From contig CAIUPP010000061.1 of the NCBI GenBank assembly GCA_903901045.1, positions 1-38,373 of the forward strand: a stretch of DNA of 38,373 nt. Reading direction: 5' to 3'. The notes below the pieces were generated by a model. That model was not told where the DNA came from and did no database searches. It saw only the letters and a list, made by a program, of their open reading frames with translations. This document shows positions 6,341 to 23,945 of this stretch, piece after piece (within the stretch, counting starts at the first letter, position 1; every line of letters begins with the position of its first letter). This DNA comes from an uncultured Planctomycetota bacterium (GTDB lineage: Bacteria > Planctomycetota > Brocadiia > CAIUPP01). The translations under genes and the position numbers were made by a program.

Positions 6341-6551
6341 AGGACCTCCAGGCCGGCTAATTCACACAGACGAACATGGTCAAAGATGGACACACGAACG
6401 GACACGGTAAACCTGCAACGCCGAGATGCTCCGCAACTCAATACGAAAGCGAACCGCCGAACTCCTGACTTTCAGTTCTCAGTTTTCAGTTTTCAGTTCT
6501 CGCCGTTCTCCGTGGCCCTCCGTGGCTCTCCGTGGTGAAACAAGCCGTGGC
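6341..6551. repeat. dispersed repeat block between hypD and hypE
   Basis: This 211-nt gap has tandem TTCAGTT(C/T)TCAG words (6470-6499) and three consecutive CTCCGTGG units (6505-6540), the reverse of the CACCACGGAG phrase seen in other gaps. There is no gene and no convincing promoter. Confidence 0.6.
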
Positions 6552-7880: not shown

Positions 7881-10259
7881 CTATTGGCACTGCGCCAGCG
7901 CGACGGCGGCCTGGCCCAGGCACATTCCTCCGTCGTTGGGAGGCACTTGCGTCTGAAAATACGCCTGGAACCCCTCGCGCGCCAGCGCGTCGAGCGTCAG
8001 TTCCAGCAGCAGCGAGTTCTGGAACACGCCGCCGCTGAGGGTCACTTTCTCCAATTTCTCGCGCTCGCGGATCATGACGCAACTCCGCGCGACGGCTTCG
8101 GCGAGCGTCCGATGGAACGCCCCGGCGATGAGACGGCGGTCCCTTCCCGCGCGCAAGTCTTCTGCGATATGCCTGATCATCGGGCCGAAGTCGAGCTGGT
8201 GGAGCGCGCTGTCCTCAGCGCGCTGGGGACACAGGGAACGACAAGCGCGCTGAGAACAGCGCGCTCCACCAGCGTCGGGAGCGGAACGAAGCTCGAATTC
8301 GTACGCCTCCGCCTCGCGCGCCGCCATCGCCTGCAGCCGGATCGCCGCCTGCCCTTCGTAGGAGACGGGCTGGTTCAGGCCGACCAGCGCCGCGACGGCG
8401 TCGAACAGCCGCCCCGCGGAGGAGGTCATCGGCGAGTGCAGCCGGCGCGTCACCATCTGCGCCAGCAGGGCGCGCTCCGCGCCGGGCAGCGCGTCCGCCA
8501 GCAACTCCAATTCCGGGGCCTCCGGGCCGAACTCCTCCACCAGGTACGCCAGCGCCATCCGCGCGGGATGCCGCACCGCTTCCTCGCCCCCCGGCAGCGG
8601 GACCTGCCGGAAATGCGCCGCGCGGCGGAATTGCTTCAGGTCCGCCACCAGGAACTCCCCGCCCCAGATCGTCCCGTCCGTCCCGTAGCCAGTGCCGTCG
8701 AGCGCGACGCCGATCACCGGCTCGTTCAGACCGTTGTCCGCCATGCAGGAGGCGACGTGCGCATGATGATGCTGCACGGCGACATGCCGCCCGGGGAGCG
8801 CCAGCGCAAGGCGCGTGGAATGGTAGTCCGGGTGCATGTCGTGGGCGATGATCTCCGGCTTGAGCGCAAACGTGCGCTGCCAGTCCGCGACCGATTCCCG
8901 GTGGAAGCGGTTGGTGGAGAAGTCCTCCAGGTCGCCGATATGCTGGGACATCAACGCGCGGTCGCCCCGCGTGATGCAGAAGGTGTTCTTCAGATCAGGC
9001 CCGACCGCCAGGACGCACGGTCCCGAAAGAGGCAGGGAGACTTCATTGGGCACATACCCGCGCGACCGCCGGATGAACTGCGTCCGCCCGCGCACGATGC
9101 GCAGCACGGAGTCGTCGCAGCGGCGGAGAATGACGCGGTCATGGTCCAGCGCGTAGTCGGCGATCGGGCCGAGGATCGGCGTCAACTCCTCCAGGTTGCG
9201 CGCCACCGGCTCCTCGCTGACGTTGCCGCTGGTCATCACCAGCGGGCTGATGCGGTCGAGGAGCATCCGGTGCAGCGGGGTGTAAGGGAGGAACGCGCCG
9301 ACGTCCGGGGTGTCCGGAGAGATCAGCGCCGAGAGGGTGGATTCCGCGCGGCGCGGCAGGATGACGATGGGGCGGGCGGGGTGAAGCAGTTCCTCCTCTT
9401 CCGTCTTCCCCACGAGACAGTGCTCGCGCAGTTGCGCCATCGAGGCGAACATGACGGCCAGCGCCTTGGCCGGGCGAACCTTGCGCTCGCGCAGGCGGCG
9501 CACGGCGTAGTCGCTGCGCGCATCGCAAGCGAGATGGAAGCCTCCCATTCCCTTGATTGCGACGGTCGCTCCTTCGGCAAGGAGACGGACGGTTTCGGTA
9601 AGCGGGTCGAGGGATCCGTTGGTGGAGCGCGCTGTCCCAGGTGCGCCGCAGTCCGGATTCTCGCGGGCGATTTCGCGTCCGGAGGCATCCAGCAGCCGCA
9701 GGCGCGGGCCGCAGGTGGGGCAGGCGTTGGGCTGGGCGTCGAAGCGCCGGTCGGAGGGATCGCGATATTCGCGGCGGCACTCCGGGCACATTTCGAACTC
9801 CGCCATCGTGGTGCGTTCGCGGTCGTACGGCAGCCCCTCGATGATCGTGAAGCGCGGCCCGCAGTTGGTGCAGTTGGTGAAGGCGTAATTGTGGCGGCGG
9901 TTGGCGGGGTCGGCCACGTCCGTTTCGCACTCGGCGCAGGCGGCCAGGTCGGCGGGGACGGTGGCGGCGGATTGCCCGCCCTGCTCGCTGGCGACGATCT
10001 CGAACCCCTTCAACCCCGCCGGTTGGAGTTCGCGCTCCAGGAAGCTCTCCATCTTCGCCTGCTTCGGGGGGTGGGTTTTCAATTGCTCGATGAAACGCAG
10101 GATGCTCTCCGCCTCCCCCTCCAGGTCGATCACGACGCCGCGCGGCTCGTTGCGCACGCTGCCGGCAAGCCCCAGTTCCTGCGCGTAGCGGTACACCGTG
10201 GGGCGGAACCCCACGCCCTGAACGCGCCCGCGGATTACCAGTTCGACTCGCTTGGCCAC
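7881..10259 (-). CDS. hypF: carbamoyltransferase HypF, with in-frame palindromic insertions
   Basis: The protein is 792 aa; HypF is usually about 750. It makes the carbamoyl group for the CN ligands from carbamoyl phosphate and ATP and passes it to HypE. Order of parts: acylphosphatase domain with RVQGVGFRP (residues 12-20); two zinc fingers (C108/C111 with C130/C133, C158/C161 with C180/C183); YrdC-like domain with KGMGGFHLACDA (from about 236); Kae1-like domain with HHHAH near residue 496 and ending in NDGGMCLGQA. It starts at GTG 10259 with AGGTG upstream. Two extra segments coincide with palindromic DNA: residues about 664-688 (8198-8270) and 205-213 (9621-9647). Neither breaks the frame nor hits a catalytic motif, so the enzyme is probably active. 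Confidence 0.97.
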   Translation of the reverse strand: MAKRVELVIRGRVQGVGFRPTVYRYAQELGLAGSVRNEPRGVVIDLEGEAESILRFIEQLKTHPPKQAKMESFLERELQPAGLKGFEIVASEQGGQSAATVPADLAACAECETDVADPANRRHNYAFTNCTNCGPRFTIIEGLPYDRERTTMAEFEMCPECRREYRDPSDRRFDAQPNACPTCGPRLRLLDASGREIARENPDCGAPGTARSTNGSLDPLTETVRLLAEGATVAIKGMGGFHLACDARSDYAVRRLRERKVRPAKALAVMFASMAQLREHCLVGKTEEEELLHPARPIVILPRRAESTLSALISPDTPDVGAFLPYTPLHRMLLDRISPLVMTSGNVSEEPVARNLEELTPILGPIADYALDHDRVILRRCDDSVLRIVRGRTQFIRRSRGYVPNEVSLPLSGPCVLAVGPDLKNTFCITRGDRALMSQHIGDLEDFSTNRFHRESVADWQRTFALKPEIIAHDMHPDYHSTRLALALPGRHVAVQHHHAHVASCMADNGLNEPVIGVALDGTGYGTDGTIWGGEFLVADLKQFRRAAHFRQVPLPGGEEAVRHPARMALAYLVEEFGPEAPELELLADALPGAERALLAQMVTRRLHSPMTSSAGRLFDAVAALVGLNQPVSYEGQAAIRLQAMAAREAEAYEFELRSAPDAGGARCSQRACRSLCPQRAEDSALHQLDFGPMIRHIAEDLRAGRDRRLIAGAFHRTLAEAVARSCVMIREREKLEKVTLSGGVFQNSLLLELTLDALAREGFQAYFQTQVPPNDGGMCLGQAAVALAQCQ
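8198..8270. repeat. near-perfect 27-bp inverted repeat inside hypF
   Basis: The left arm (8198-8224) starts GGTGGAGCGCGCTGTCC; the right arm (8244-8270) ends CAGCGCGCTCCACC. They are reverse complements at 26 of 27 positions around 19 nt. The 73-bp unit is translated in frame as an Arg/Cys-rich insert in HypF. Related half copies are at 9621-9647 (also hypF) and 14089-14114 (trpB-trpA gap). Confidence 0.85.
9621..9647. repeat. degenerate half copy of the hypF palindrome
   Basis: GGTGGAGCGCGCTGTCC at 9621-9637 is identical to the first 17 bases of the left arm at 8198; the rest has diverged. It is read in frame in the linker between the HypF zinc fingers and the YrdC-like domain (about residues 205-213). 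Confidence 0.7.
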
Positions 10260-19796: not shown

Positions 19797-20852
19797 ATGA
19801 AGAACTACATCCTCAAGCGCCTGGCGTTCATGGTGCTCACGCTGTTCGTGATCACGCTGGTGAGCTACACCATGATGCGCCTGGCCCCCGGCGACCCGAC
19901 CCGCCCCAAGGCGCTCGGCTCGGAGGGCGCCGGCGTGCAGCGCGCCGACCAGCGCGATACGCTGGCCGGCAAGCTGATGCGTGAGAAGTACCACCTGGAC
20001 AAAAACCCCCTGATCGGCTATGGCTACTGGCTCAAGGACGTCGTCACGCGCTTCGACTGGGGCAGTTCCATCGTGGTGGACCCCGGCGCGCCGGTGATGA
20101 AAGTGATCGCCAGCCGCCTCGCGCCGACGCTCAAGATCAACATCCTCAGCATCCTGCTGGTGTACCTGTGCGCCATCCCGCTGGGGATTTACGCGGCGGT
20201 GCGGCGCAACAAGCTGGATGAGCGCGCCGTGACGGTGATGCTCTTCCTGCTCTACTCGCTCCCGGGGTTCTGGGTGGGGCTGCTGCTGCTCATGTTCTTC
20301 GCCGCGCCGCACGTCCTGAGCATCCACCTCGGCTTCATTCAATTCGTCCTGTGCTCCCCCACGCTCCCCGTGGCCGGGCTCGCGCCGGCGGAGTATCTGA
20401 CCTGGGGAAAGAGCACCTGGGAGATCCTCTGGGCCACCTCCAAGCACTTCATCCTGCCGGTGCTCTGCCTCTCGTACGCCGAACTGGCGGGGCTTTCGCG
20501 GTACGCGCGCGTGGGGATGCTGGAGATCATCCGCCAGGATTACGTGCGCACGGCGCGCGCCAAGGGGCTGCCGGAATGGAAGGTGATCGGCAAGCACGTT
20601 TTCCGCAACGGATTGATCCCGCTGGTGACGCTCTTCGCCGGGCTGCTGCCGGAGCTGATCGCCGGCTCGGTCATCGTCGAGTACATCTTCTCCATCAACG
20701 GGGAGGGGAACCTGTCGCTGCTGGCGCTGACCAGCCGGGACTACCCCCTGATGATGGCGCTGTTCACGATCGGCGCGTTTCTGACCCTGCTGGGCATTTT
20801 GCTTTCGGATATTCTCTATGCCGTCGTCGACCCGAGAATCAGCATCCAGTGA
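19797..20852 (+). CDS. dppB: peptide ABC transporter permease (DppB/OppB family)
   Basis: The protein is 351 aa, an inner-membrane permease half. It opens with the classic KRLAFMVLTLFVITLVSYT helix and APGDP. Further helices follow, and the EAA loop (YVRTARAKGLPEWKVIGKHVF) contacts the ATPase. An extracytoplasmic segment between helices (about residues 165-215) is longer than usual. No clear ribosome site precedes the ATG. Its 3' end overlaps the next permease by 35 nt. Opp versus Dpp specificity is not resolved. Confidence 0.93.
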   Translation: MKNYILKRLAFMVLTLFVITLVSYTMMRLAPGDPTRPKALGSEGAGVQRADQRDTLAGKLMREKYHLDKNPLIGYGYWLKDVVTRFDWGSSIVVDPGAPVMKVIASRLAPTLKINILSILLVYLCAIPLGIYAAVRRNKLDERAVTVMLFLLYSLPGFWVGLLLLMFFAAPHVLSIHLGFIQFVLCSPTLPVAGLAPAEYLTWGKSTWEILWATSKHFILPVLCLSYAELAGLSRYARVGMLEIIRQDYVRTARAKGLPEWKVIGKHVFRNGLIPLVTLFAGLLPELIAGSVIVEYIFSINGEGNLSLLALTSRDYPLMMALFTIGAFLTLLGILLSDILYAVVDPRISIQ

Positions 20853-22095
20853 GACGCCCGAGCGCGGGCGCTCCTACGGCGAACTGGTCTGGCGACAGTT
20901 CCGGCGGGAGCATCTTGCTATCGTCGGGCTGGCGCTGATCATCCTGCTGTTCCTGGTGGCGATGGGCGCGCCGCTGCTGGCGAGCAACAAGCCGGTGCTG
21001 GCGCGGGTGGATGGCCAGTGGCAGGCCCCGTTGCTGCGCGAGCTTTTCGCCCCCAGCCCGGAGACGCCGGAGTTGTTCCTGGAGCGGCTGTTCAACTTCG
21101 GCCTCGTAACTCTGCTCGCGTCGCTCCTCCTCGTCCTGCCGGTCTGGGGAATTGTTTGTATCGTGAGGCGGCGGTGGCGGGCTGTTGTAGGGGCAAGGCA
21201 TGCCTTGCCCCTGCGTATGGGCGCGGCGTGGATCGCCCTCGGGATTGTCGCCGCCGCCTGCATGGTTCCCTTCTTCACCGTGCAAAGCCGCCTGGACAAT
21301 ACGGACTACCGCGCGGCGCTGGCCGACGCGGCGAAGCGGCCGGGGAATTTCGCGCTCTGGCCCGTCGTGCGCTACGGCCCCTTCGAAAGTTCGGGCACGC
21401 CGTTCCAGCCCCCCGGCCGGGAGCACACGCTGGGGACGGATCGCTCCGGGCGCGACGTGCTGGCGCGGCTGATCCACGGGTCGCGCGTGTCGCTATCGGT
21501 CGGCTTCCTCTCGGTCGCGGTGGCGGTGGCGCTCGGGCTGTTTGTCGGCTCCCTCAGCGCTTATCACGGCGGACGCGTGGACCTGGTCCTTCAGCGCGTG
21601 GTGGAGGTGGTCATCTGCTTCCCCACCTTCCTGCTGATCCTGACGATCATGGCGTTCGTGGACAAGCGCTCCATCTTCAACGTGATGCTGGTGATCGGGC
21701 TGACCGGCTGGACAGGCATCGCCCGGCTCGTGCGCGGGCAGATGCTCGGGGAGAAGGCGAAGGATTACATCACCGCCGCGCGGGCGCTCGGCGCGGGCTC
21801 CTGGCGCATCATCTTCCGCCACCTGCTGCCCAACAGCATCGCCCCCGTCCTCGTCTCGGCCACGTTCGGCGTGGCCGGGGCGATTCTCACCGAGAGCGGC
21901 CTCTCCTTCCTGGGTTTCGGCGTGCGCCCCCCGACGGCCAGCTGGGGCGAGCTGCTCAACCAGGCCCAGACCTGGCCCACCGGCTACTGGTGGCTGACCA
22001 TCTGGCCCGGCGTGATGATATTCCTGACGGTGACGGTATATAATCTCGTGGGTGAAGGATTGAGAGATGCGCTGGATCCGAGGATGAAGGCGTGA
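20818..22095 (+). CDS. dppC: peptide ABC transporter permease (DppC/OppC family), enlarged
   Basis: The protein is 425 aa against roughly 300 for usual DppC. The core is present: HTLGTDRSGRDVLARLIHG, then the EAA loop DYITAARALGAGSWRIIFRH with LLPNSI. Two additional hydrophobic segments (about residues 94-115 and 132-152) and a long extracytoplasmic part precede it. Between these two segments the DNA is a perfect 24-bp palindrome (21189-21212) read in frame. The ATG at 20818 is the only plausible start; it overlaps dppB by 35 nt, so translation is probably coupled. The stop TGA (22093-22095) abuts the inverted-repeat cassette. Confidence 0.92.
   Translation: MPSSTRESASSETPERGRSYGELVWRQFRREHLAIVGLALIILLFLVAMGAPLLASNKPVLARVDGQWQAPLLRELFAPSPETPELFLERLFNFGLVTLLASLLLVLPVWGIVCIVRRRWRAVVGARHALPLRMGAAWIALGIVAAACMVPFFTVQSRLDNTDYRAALADAAKRPGNFALWPVVRYGPFESSGTPFQPPGREHTLGTDRSGRDVLARLIHGSRVSLSVGFLSVAVAVALGLFVGSLSAYHGGRVDLVLQRVVEVVICFPTFLLILTIMAFVDKRSIFNVMLVIGLTGWTGIARLVRGQMLGEKAKDYITAARALGAGSWRIIFRHLLPNSIAPVLVSATFGVAGAILTESGLSFLGFGVRPPTASWGELLNQAQTWPTGYWWLTIWPGVMIFLTVTVYNLVGEGLRDALDPRMKA
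21189..21212. repeat. perfect 24-bp palindrome inside dppC
   Basis: AGGGGCAAGGCA pairs exactly with TGCCTTGCCCCT. GTAG lies at its left foot (21187-21190), as in REP units. Translated in frame as part of the enlarged N-terminal region. Confidence 0.85.
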
Positions 22096-22637
22096 CGGAT
22101 TCAACGTTCGACATCCGACGTCCGACGTTCAACGTTCGAAGAACGGCAACAAACGACGAAAGGCAACGCGGTGGCGGTGTTCGATCTGGAAGAGCGGCTG
22201 TTGGACTATGCTGCGCGCATCATGCGGCTGGCCGAGAAGCTACCAAACACACGCGTAGGCAACCATGTGGCCGCGCAACTTCTGAGGTGCGGAACATCGG
22301 CCCTGCCCAACCATGGGGAGGCGCAGGGGGCGGAGTCGCCCCGGGATTTTATCCACAAGATGCGCATCTGTCTGAAAGAGCTCCGCGAAACGCGGCGTTG
22401 GCTCAGGCTCATCCAACGTGTTCCTATGGTAAAATCCCCCCGCCAGGTTGAACCGTTGCTTGAAGAAACCGAAACGCTCATTAAGATATTCTTCACCAGC
22501 ATCCGCACCGCCCAAAGGAAGCAGGACGCTATCAAGGGTTGATCTGTCGGCCCTTGTCGTTGTTGCCGTTACTTGGACGTTGAACGTCGGACGTCGGATC
22601 AGGTGCGCAGTGCGCACCGCGTCGAACGTTGAATCCG
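22096..22637. mobile_element. inverted-repeat-flanked cassette carrying a four-helix-bundle gene
   Basis: The left end 22096-22153 begins CGGATTCAACGTTCGAC, then ATCCGACGTCCGACGTTC, and runs into AACGGCAACAA. The right end (22560-22637), read in reverse, has the same three blocks in order, plus a 21-22 bp palindromic insert (GGTGCGCAGTGCGCACC, 22602-22618). The left end begins the base after the dppC stop. The interior encodes one protein (22171-22542). No transposase is present, so movement would need help in trans. Confidence 0.7.
22171..22542 (+). CDS. four-helix bundle protein (S23 / 23S rRNA intervening-sequence protein family)
   Basis: The protein is 123 aa. It has the S23/IVP pattern: QLLRCGTSALPNHGEAQG, SPRDFIHKMRICLKELRE, then TRRWLRLIQR. 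It is a small basic helical bundle related to DGR accessory proteins (Avd); the biochemical role of the stand-alone members is not known. It starts at GTG 22171, with AAAGG upstream. It lies between the permease and ATPase genes of the peptide transporter and is unrelated to transport; matching inverted repeats flank it. Its position suggests an inserted cassette rather than an operon member. Confidence 0.9.
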   Translation: MAVFDLEERLLDYAARIMRLAEKLPNTRVGNHVAAQLLRCGTSALPNHGEAQGAESPRDFIHKMRICLKELRETRRWLRLIQRVPMVKSPRQVEPLLEETETLIKIFFTSIRTAQRKQDAIKG

Positions 22638-22659
22638 TTTCTTGAAAGTTGAGCGTTGA

Positions 22660-23640
22660 ATGTTGAAAGTTGAATCCGTAAACCTGCTCCAGGTCAAGGA
22701 TCTCCACACGAGTTTCCACACCCTCGACGGCATCGCCCGCGCGGTGGATGGCGTCTCCTTTGAGGTCGGCGAGGGGGAGACGGTGGGGCTGGTGGGGGAG
22801 TCGGGGTGCGGCAAGTCGGTCACCGCGCTCTCCATCCTGCGGCTGGTGGATGCGCCGGGGCGGATCGAGAGCGGCGAGATTCTGCTGCGCGGGCGGAACC
22901 TGCTGACGCTGCCGAAGAAAGAAATGCGCGCCGTGCGCGGCGGGCAGATCAGTATGATCTTCCAGGAGCCGATGACCAGCCTGAACCCCGTCTTCACCAT
23001 CGGCGATCAGGTGATCGAGGCGGTTCGGCTCCACCAGAAGCTGGGGGTGGCCGAGGCGCGGCAGGAGGCGATCGAGATGCTGCGCAAGGTGGGCATCCCC
23101 AGCCCCGAACAGCGGATCGACAGCTACCCGCATCAACTGTCCGGCGGGATGAAACAGCGCGTGATGATCGCGATGGCGCTGGTCTGCCGCCCGTCGCTGC
23201 TGATCGCCGACGAGCCGACCACGGCGCTGGATGTGACGATCCAGGCGGAAATCCTGGATCTGCTGGCGGCGTTGCAGGGCGAGTTGAAGATGGCGGTGCT
23301 GCTGATTACGCACAACCTCGGGATCGTGGCGGGGATGGCGCGCCGCGTGGTGGTGATGTACGCCGGGAAGGTGGCCGAGAGCGCCGAGACGGCGGACCTC
23401 TTCGAGAACCCGCGCCACCCCTACACGATGCTGCTGTTCAAGGCGGTGCCGCGGCTGGACACTCCCCGGCTGTCGCGGCTGGAGGATATCAAGGGGGTCG
23501 TGCCGAACCCGAAGCGCTGGCCCGCCGGCTGCCGCTTCCACCCGCGCTGCCCGTACGCGATTGAGAAATGCTCCCGGCAGGAGCCGCCGCTGGAGGAGAA
23601 ACGCCCGAACCACTGGGCGGCCTGCTGGGTGTTGAAGTGA
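22660..23640 (+). CDS. dppD: peptide ABC transporter ATPase (DppD/OppD family)
   Basis: The protein is 326 aa, a cytosolic ATPase of the transporter. Walker A is GESGCGKS (46-53), the signature is LSGGMKQR and Walker B is [13 protein letters not shown]. The C-terminal oligopeptide-transporter extension with [15 protein letters not shown] supplies three of the cysteines usually linked to an FeS cluster in this family. The first seven residues (MLKVESV) are encoded by repeat DNA (GTTGAAAGTTGAATCCG, 22663-22679), so the original start may have been replaced when the repeat arrived. No good ribosome site is seen. Confidence 0.94.
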
Positions 23641-23945
23641 GGGAAACGGCGGTGAACCGCCAAGACGCCAAGTCAGGTTAACGGCAACGACTTTCACCGC
23701 AGAGACACAGAGGACGCAGAGAACGGCAAGGCCGGTTAACGAAGACGGCAACGGCGTCTCACGCAAAGACCGGAGCGCGCGGCGTACCGCGCGCGGTGCA
23801 AAGGCGCAAAGAACGAAGCAAGATGGCAACAACCAGAGAGGCTTGTCTGATGAACGCATGCTGGCAGCAAGGACTTCTTCACCGCTCCTCGTCCTTGCCG
23901 TCCTTGCAGTCTTCTTGGTCCTTTGGAAAGTAGAGTGGCCCACTG
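23641..23945. repeat. dispersed repeats between the two ATPase genes
   Basis: This 305-nt gap has no supported gene. It strings together ACCGCCAAGACGCCAAG (23656-23672), CACCGCAGAGACACAGAGG, CACGCAAAGACCGGAG, a CGCGCGGCGTACCGCGCGCG palindrome (about 23777-23796) and TCCTTGCAGTCTTCTTGGTC. The same phrases occur near 14040, 19740, 24960, 25180 and 26285. A short frame at 23843-24079 mostly overlaps dppF and is not believed. Confidence 0.75.

Follow-up and report, generated by a model that had tools for sequence, protein, structure and literature searches.

S23 genes between inverted heptamer arrays: a putative mobile unit in a dpp operon of an uncultured Planctomycetota bacterium

An S23 gene and its arms between dppC and dppD

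The window, i.e. the whole analysed stretch of 38,373 nucleotides from an uncultured Planctomycetota bacterium, carries an S23/IVP gene on the forward strand between a dppC-like permease gene and a dppD-like ATPase gene (Table 1). The gene and its flanks form a unit of about 545 bp with inverted ends at 22095-22152 and 22560-22638, and no transposase is encoded inside. The original prediction had described a cassette with three-block inverted ends, an S23/IVP-type cargo and a left end placed directly after the dppC stop. The cargo matched both profiles of the family (PF05635, 1.3e-13; TIGR02436, 4.5e-23), and the left end starts at once where the TGA stop codon of dppC ends (22095). Blocks in inverted orientation were likewise confirmed at both sides, with 18 nt at 100% and 40 nt at 90% complementarity. 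Their anatomy, however, is another one than three plain blocks: they consist of degenerate tandem arrays of 7-nt units with an inner motif (AACGGCAACAA), and the right arm, but not the left one, is split by a 21-nt palindrome.

The left array reads TTCAACG, TTCGACA, TCCGACG, TCCGACG, TTCAACG, TTC, with a lag-7 array at 22100-22137. For the ends of the unit a local match score of 64 was obtained, compared with at most 26 in 2000 shuffles. No other position in the window exceeded 64, the positional maximum being the S23 unit itself. For the unit as RNA, a fold of -269 kcal/mol was predicted (z = -10.3 against shuffles). In the predicted fold the complementary ends form a single long stem, which is characteristic of S23-coding 23S rRNA intervening sequences (IVSs). 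A third heptamer array is located outside the right end. The reading frame of dppD starts within it, so that the start codon and the codons next to it are derived from repeat sequence.

The empty sites in relatives that the original prediction had proposed for comparison were found. In the three genomes G001, G002 and G003 the dppC/dppD junction contains no unit, and both genes overlap or stand at most a few bases apart.

Further observations were made elsewhere in the window. Repeat-like sequence (CAGAGACACAGAGGACGCAGAG, AACGGCAACG) is also present in the gap between dppD and dppF (23641-23945). A lone heptamer array, TCAGTTCTCAGTTTTCAGTTTTCAGTTCTC, is located at 6472-6501; it belongs to the family of another S23 unit (L035), has the same CTCGCCGTT ending, and no inverted partner was seen. 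At 8386-8471 on the reverse strand, a tRNA-Val (cac) overlapping long mechanical ORFs was predicted by ARAGORN.

Table 1 Features of the S23 unit and its host genes in the window
Feature	Position	Strand	Evidence or remark
dppC-like ABC permease, host gene	20818-22095	+	PF00528 9.7e-34, PF12911; stop abuts left end
Left outer arm ACGGATTCAACGTTCGAC, heptamer array	22095-22112		perfect inverse of 22621-22638
Left inner arm, heptamer array to about 22141, then inner motif AACGGCAACAA	22113-22152		90% complementary to 22560-22599
S23 / 23S rRNA-intervening-sequence protein gene, GTG start, 123 aa	22171-22542	+	PF05635, TIGR02436; A1 profile matches PDB 2rld
Right inner arm, inner motif TTGTTGCCGTT and heptamer array	22560-22599		pairs with left inner arm
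Nested palindrome CAGGTGCGCAGTGCGCACCGC in right arm	22600-22620		related to palindromes of L002, L008 and L013
Right outer arm GTCGAACGTTGAATCCGT	22621-22638		perfect inverse of 22095-22112
Extra heptamer array beyond right end	22642-22679		lag-7 array with dppD start codon (22660)
dppD-like ABC ATPase, host gene	22660-23640	+	PF00005 5.1e-32, PF08352

Copies of the ends and other S23 genes in the same genome

The end sequence of the window unit gave 60 matches in the 4.77-Mb genome. Sixteen complete gene-less pairs with these ends were identified (128-174 bp), and two further copies have the same ends and other interiors (L010 with 278 bp and L004 with about 416 bp). By eye, a small ORF on the opposite strand is visible in the interior of L004 (about 1500-1920, G000:C89). 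Three gene-less copies (L002, L008 and L013) contain in one arm a palindrome related to that of the window unit, which suggests common descent. Concerted evolution of the two arms was not detected in the gene-less family, as the own partner of an arm was no better match than other copies (permutation p 0.80).

All six compact S23 genes of the genome are flanked by inverted heptamer arms, with scores of 40-83 compared with shuffle maxima of 23-28, and the six genes have six different heptamers. Four of the six units were found in one Flp/Tad pilus operon (L225, G000:C61:47500-63500), each with a heptamer of its own and all in the direction of the operon. As no two of the six genes share a heptamer, a single fixed transposon end was rejected. 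The idea of a mobile unit held insofar as the unit is inserted, lacks a transposase inside, has ends that recur in the genome and is missing in relatives. The ends are, however, not those of one S23 transposon: the recurring copies are mostly without S23, and the other S23 genes have different heptamers. Hence, S23 is linked to inverted heptamer arrays in general and not to one end sequence.

Besides the compact genes, longer ORFs of 219-285 aa with partial PF05635 matches (L037-L041) were noticed. L037 and L039-L041 are without arms and L038 has a weak arm; possibly, these ORFs have a different role. With PADLOC no match was obtained.

S23 loci in other phyla and their empty sites

A contig scan yielded 80 S23 relatives in many phyla, picked by similarity to the S23 proteins of the window genome. 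The arms were surveyed at the 76 loci with enough flanking sequence, covering more than ten phyla and mostly from metagenome bins; 578 ORFs of the same contigs served as control, and a score of at least 30 was used as cut-off. Inverted flank matches of this score were found for 91% of the S23 loci and for 0.7% of the control ORFs, where 91% need not apply to every PF05635 gene, since the loci were chosen by similarity to the window genome's S23 proteins. The median score was 44.5 for S23 loci and 18 for control ORFs. Inverted heptamer arms are thus near-universal for the S23 genes of this group.

The arms matched themselves at lag 7 (0.61) and lag 14 (0.57), compared with 0.29-0.31 in shuffled arms. 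Lag 7 was best in 83 of 93 upstream and 77 of 93 downstream flanks, compared with 24 of 199 random stretches. The array length showed a sharp mode at 36-40 nt, i.e. about five heptamers, at the two stricter of three mismatch settings; at the loosest one the peak was still at 36-41 nt, with a longer tail and a median of 46. The pattern of inverted arrays recurs in class relatives of the window's genome, by eye with some units of 8-9 nt. A was more frequent than T in 60 of 71 5' arms. Outer end motifs common to several phyla and independent of the heptamer were also observed, either CCATAAGCGCTAACTT-like (L077, L081, L091) or GAACCGCAGA-like (L086, L090, L105, L126).

The distance between heptamer motifs tracks the distance between proteins weakly (Mantel r 0.25; none of 2000 permutations as high), which could partly be due to shared descent. 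In the S23 protein tree the phyla are intermixed, with 30 label changes at a minimum of 15. Regarding orientation, 36 of 54 units are located between two genes co-directional with S23 and three between two opposed genes, the neighbours having been called mechanically. Seven of ten annotated cyanobacterial plasmid loci are sense and three antisense. The orientation bias is strong but not absolute. None of the five 23S rRNA landmarks used was present in any fetched S23 locus. Carriage by phages was not confirmed in viral_contigs; there were two weak phage matches, and the one examined was without arms.

Plasmids provided a direct comparison of filled and empty alleles. Inverted arms, mostly plain heptamer arrays, were found at all 11 fetched plasmid S23 loci (scores 31-63). 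Ten of these loci are from cyanobacteria (Nostoc, Calothrix and others), and the cyanobacterial heptamers, including AACAGGG, AGTAGGG and CAGAAGT, are STRR-like. Ten Nostoc plasmids have one three-gene cluster in common, whose alleles with and without a unit are 91-99% identical at the DNA level. Between genes 1 and 2 an S23 unit follows directly behind the stop codon in L207, L214 and L217 (TTCTA/AATCAGGAGTCAG...CTTCTGGATTCTA/GTTATG), and the same site is empty in L206 (TTCTAGGTTATG), L213, L215, L216 and L218. Only L206 carries a unit between genes 2 and 3; this S23 unit is not the one found between genes 1 and 2, and its heptamer is another one. The plasmids of L206 and L207 belong to one strain. 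In L217 (840-1470) a gene-less hairpin in turn interrupts the S23 gene; it consists of the same heptamer, and its junctions are clean. Target-site duplications were TTCTA-like at the Nostoc site and absent or 1 bp long at the L217 hairpin; none was consistent across sites.

Within the class of the window's genome, several genomes have an S23 unit inside a gene that was named methylase-like from reading its sequence, and others have this gene without a unit. Thus, presence/absence polymorphism was found for this class of units both in Nostoc and in the methylase-like gene. For six filled alleles (L177-L180, L185, L186) the host frame is open through the unit, which adds about 140-150 codons, and S23 is encoded in another frame; in L188 the host frame is not open. 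By a simple Nei-Gojobori count, dN/dS was 0.08-0.52 for the S23 frame and 0.46-1.64 for the host frame. At this one site tested, S23 is under purifying selection. In L181-L184 the loop of the methylase-like gene that takes up S23 units elsewhere was observed to contain other, unrelated palindrome-like inserts in frame.

S23 units were also found at cas genes. Two cyanobacteria (L204, L212) have the arrangement cas6-S23-cas4, and in L152 an S23 unit adjoins a gene read as cas1.

Mobility of the unit, role of S23 and relation to known elements

The window feature is best explained as a small mobile S23 unit between inverted heptamer arrays, with an S23 pentamer that binds the arms and promotes the spread; we assign this reading a probability of about 0.6. 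Mobility of the unit is highly probable. Binding of the heptamers by S23 is probable, and S23 as the driver of movement stands at somewhat below even odds. The S23 unit is inserted in sense immediately downstream of the dppC stop, and according to this model its arms would pair to a single long stem once the host operon is transcribed. RNase III cuts the stem of the Coxiella IVS (PMC4990558), and by analogy it could cut the stem of the window unit, so that the insertion would be tolerated. Each subunit of the S23 homopentamer would bind one heptamer, and the whole pentamer an arm of about five. This binding would help host DNA enzymes to copy or insert the S23 unit itself and, in trans, gene-less hairpins.

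The solved S23 structure 2rld has five chains, and the Coxiella paper cites the S23 protein of Xanthomonas as a homopentamer (PMC4990558). The agreement between a five-unit array and a pentamer may be coincidence. Against the preferred reading speak the lack of a catalytic domain in S23, the lack of a target-site duplication constant between sites, and the gene-less copies, whose arms match their own partners no better than other copies. Furthermore, S23 need not move the gene-less copies, because within their end family these are far more numerous than copies with S23.

This numerical dominance of gene-less copies also fits another explanation, which is unlikely but more serious than the others: the heptamer hairpins would be the entity that moves or expands, as STRR- or MITE-like hairpins do, driven by some activity of the host or of a transposon, and S23 would be a passenger that entered them and benefits from being expressed within operons. 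Copies with the window's ends and other interiors (L004, L010) and the S23-less heptamer arrays (STRRs) long known in cyanobacteria agree with such hairpins. In contrast, the near-universal association with S23 and the independent heptamer of each S23 gene argue against it. Neither the uniform arm size, clustering near five units at S23 genes, nor the protein-motif correlation would be needed by a gene that merely travels along.

Considerably less probable is S23 as an RNA-binding regulator, with the arms as RNA hairpins that control operon expression and are kept by selection on regulation instead of mobility. The sense bias inside operons, the short spacing to stop codons, the purifying selection on S23 and the strong predicted stem are consistent with this role. 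But the host genes, among them dpp, Tad pilus, cas, nrd, conjugation and methylase genes, are mutually unrelated. Moreover, filled and empty alleles occur side by side in a single strain, and antisense units exist.

The original prediction had also pointed to diversity-generating retroelements (DGRs). The DGR accessory protein Avd has a four-helix-bundle pentamer fold similar to that of S23, and the sense bias would fit copying at the RNA level. S23 would then work like Avd together with a reverse transcriptase that copies the RNA of the unit. This link was not borne out, as no match to PF00078 was found in the window's genome (G000), nor in G005, G013, G019, G023 and G029, which all bear S23; some of these six genomes are incomplete bins. 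A reverse transcriptase thus seems not to be needed, and the DGR-like route is very improbable. Movement of the hairpins by a Y1 tyrosine transposase, as in REP/RAYT systems, is the least credible explanation: Y1_Tnp genes are present in the genome, but none of the four examined has the heptamer ends as paired flanks, and the long inverted repeats on both sides of three of them are of another type, so that no transposase partner with the same ends was found among the Y1 transposases checked.

Returning to the preferred reading of a mobile S23 unit, its nearest counterparts are the S23-coding 23S rRNA IVSs of Coxiella and Leptospira. Like the window unit, these have an S23 ORF, complementary ends that form one stem, and sense orientation to the host transcript. 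The Coxiella IVS contains tandem GACAGAT heptamers in the 5' arm and a terminal stem of 28 bp, and the old idea of IVSs as mobile elements is quoted in that paper (PMC4990558). In contrast to the IVSs, the window unit is located in an mRNA operon (dppC/dppD), six heptamer families occur in one genome, and gene-less copies exist. As it does not lie in an rRNA gene, the window feature is regarded as a variant of the IVS kind and not as an IVS itself.

Similarities exist to two further groups of elements. The STRRs of cyanobacteria consist, like the S23 arms, of tandem 7-nt units dispersed in the genome, and such arrays flank the plasmid S23 genes of Nostoc and Calothrix. As its same-class relatives show, the host of the window unit is not close kin of these cyanobacteria. 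To our knowledge, STRRs have not previously been tied to S23. MITE-like and other palindromic elements resemble the window family in being short and intergenic, with inverted ends and many gene-less copies. However, the ends of S23 units are degenerate arrays and not a fixed terminal sequence, no transposase partner was found among the Y1 transposases, and there is no consistent target-site duplication.

In the best reading, the window unit belongs to a cross-phylum population of which the S23-coding 23S rRNA IVS of Coxiella is one case. More tentatively, and with less confidence than in any part of the preferred reading, S23 units could form a class of mobile DNA of their own that extends across phyla. 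In such a class, five S23 subunits arranged as a ring would read five heptamers, and the ring would mobilise both the unit that encodes it and gene-less hairpins, with no known transposase or reverse transcriptase involved. S23 genes are listed in cas loci in one paper, and the family is named in a figure on CRISPR association in another (PMC3936711, PMC10910872). In the cases found here, such CRISPR-associated S23 genes have the appearance of cas operon insertions, and the units in or beside cas operons (L204, L212, L152) may explain these reports. In our literature search, largely outside subscription journals, no paper was found in which a general link between S23 genes and inverted heptamer arrays is described.

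We know of no function for the S23 family since the IVSs were described. The link between S23 and heptamers across phyla leads to the concrete question if the pentamer binds five heptamers. A striking example of overprinting is the methylase-like gene with its in-frame S23 insertions. In general, the results point to S23 units with inverted heptamer arrays as widespread, overlooked mobile DNA. If the preferred reading is true, it would explain the S23 genes in rRNA IVSs, the heptamer arrays of cyanobacteria and the CRISPR-associated S23 genes together. If S23 units even form a separate class, 23S rRNA IVSs, STRR arrays and 'CRISPR-associated' S23 genes would be three faces of one class of mobile DNA.
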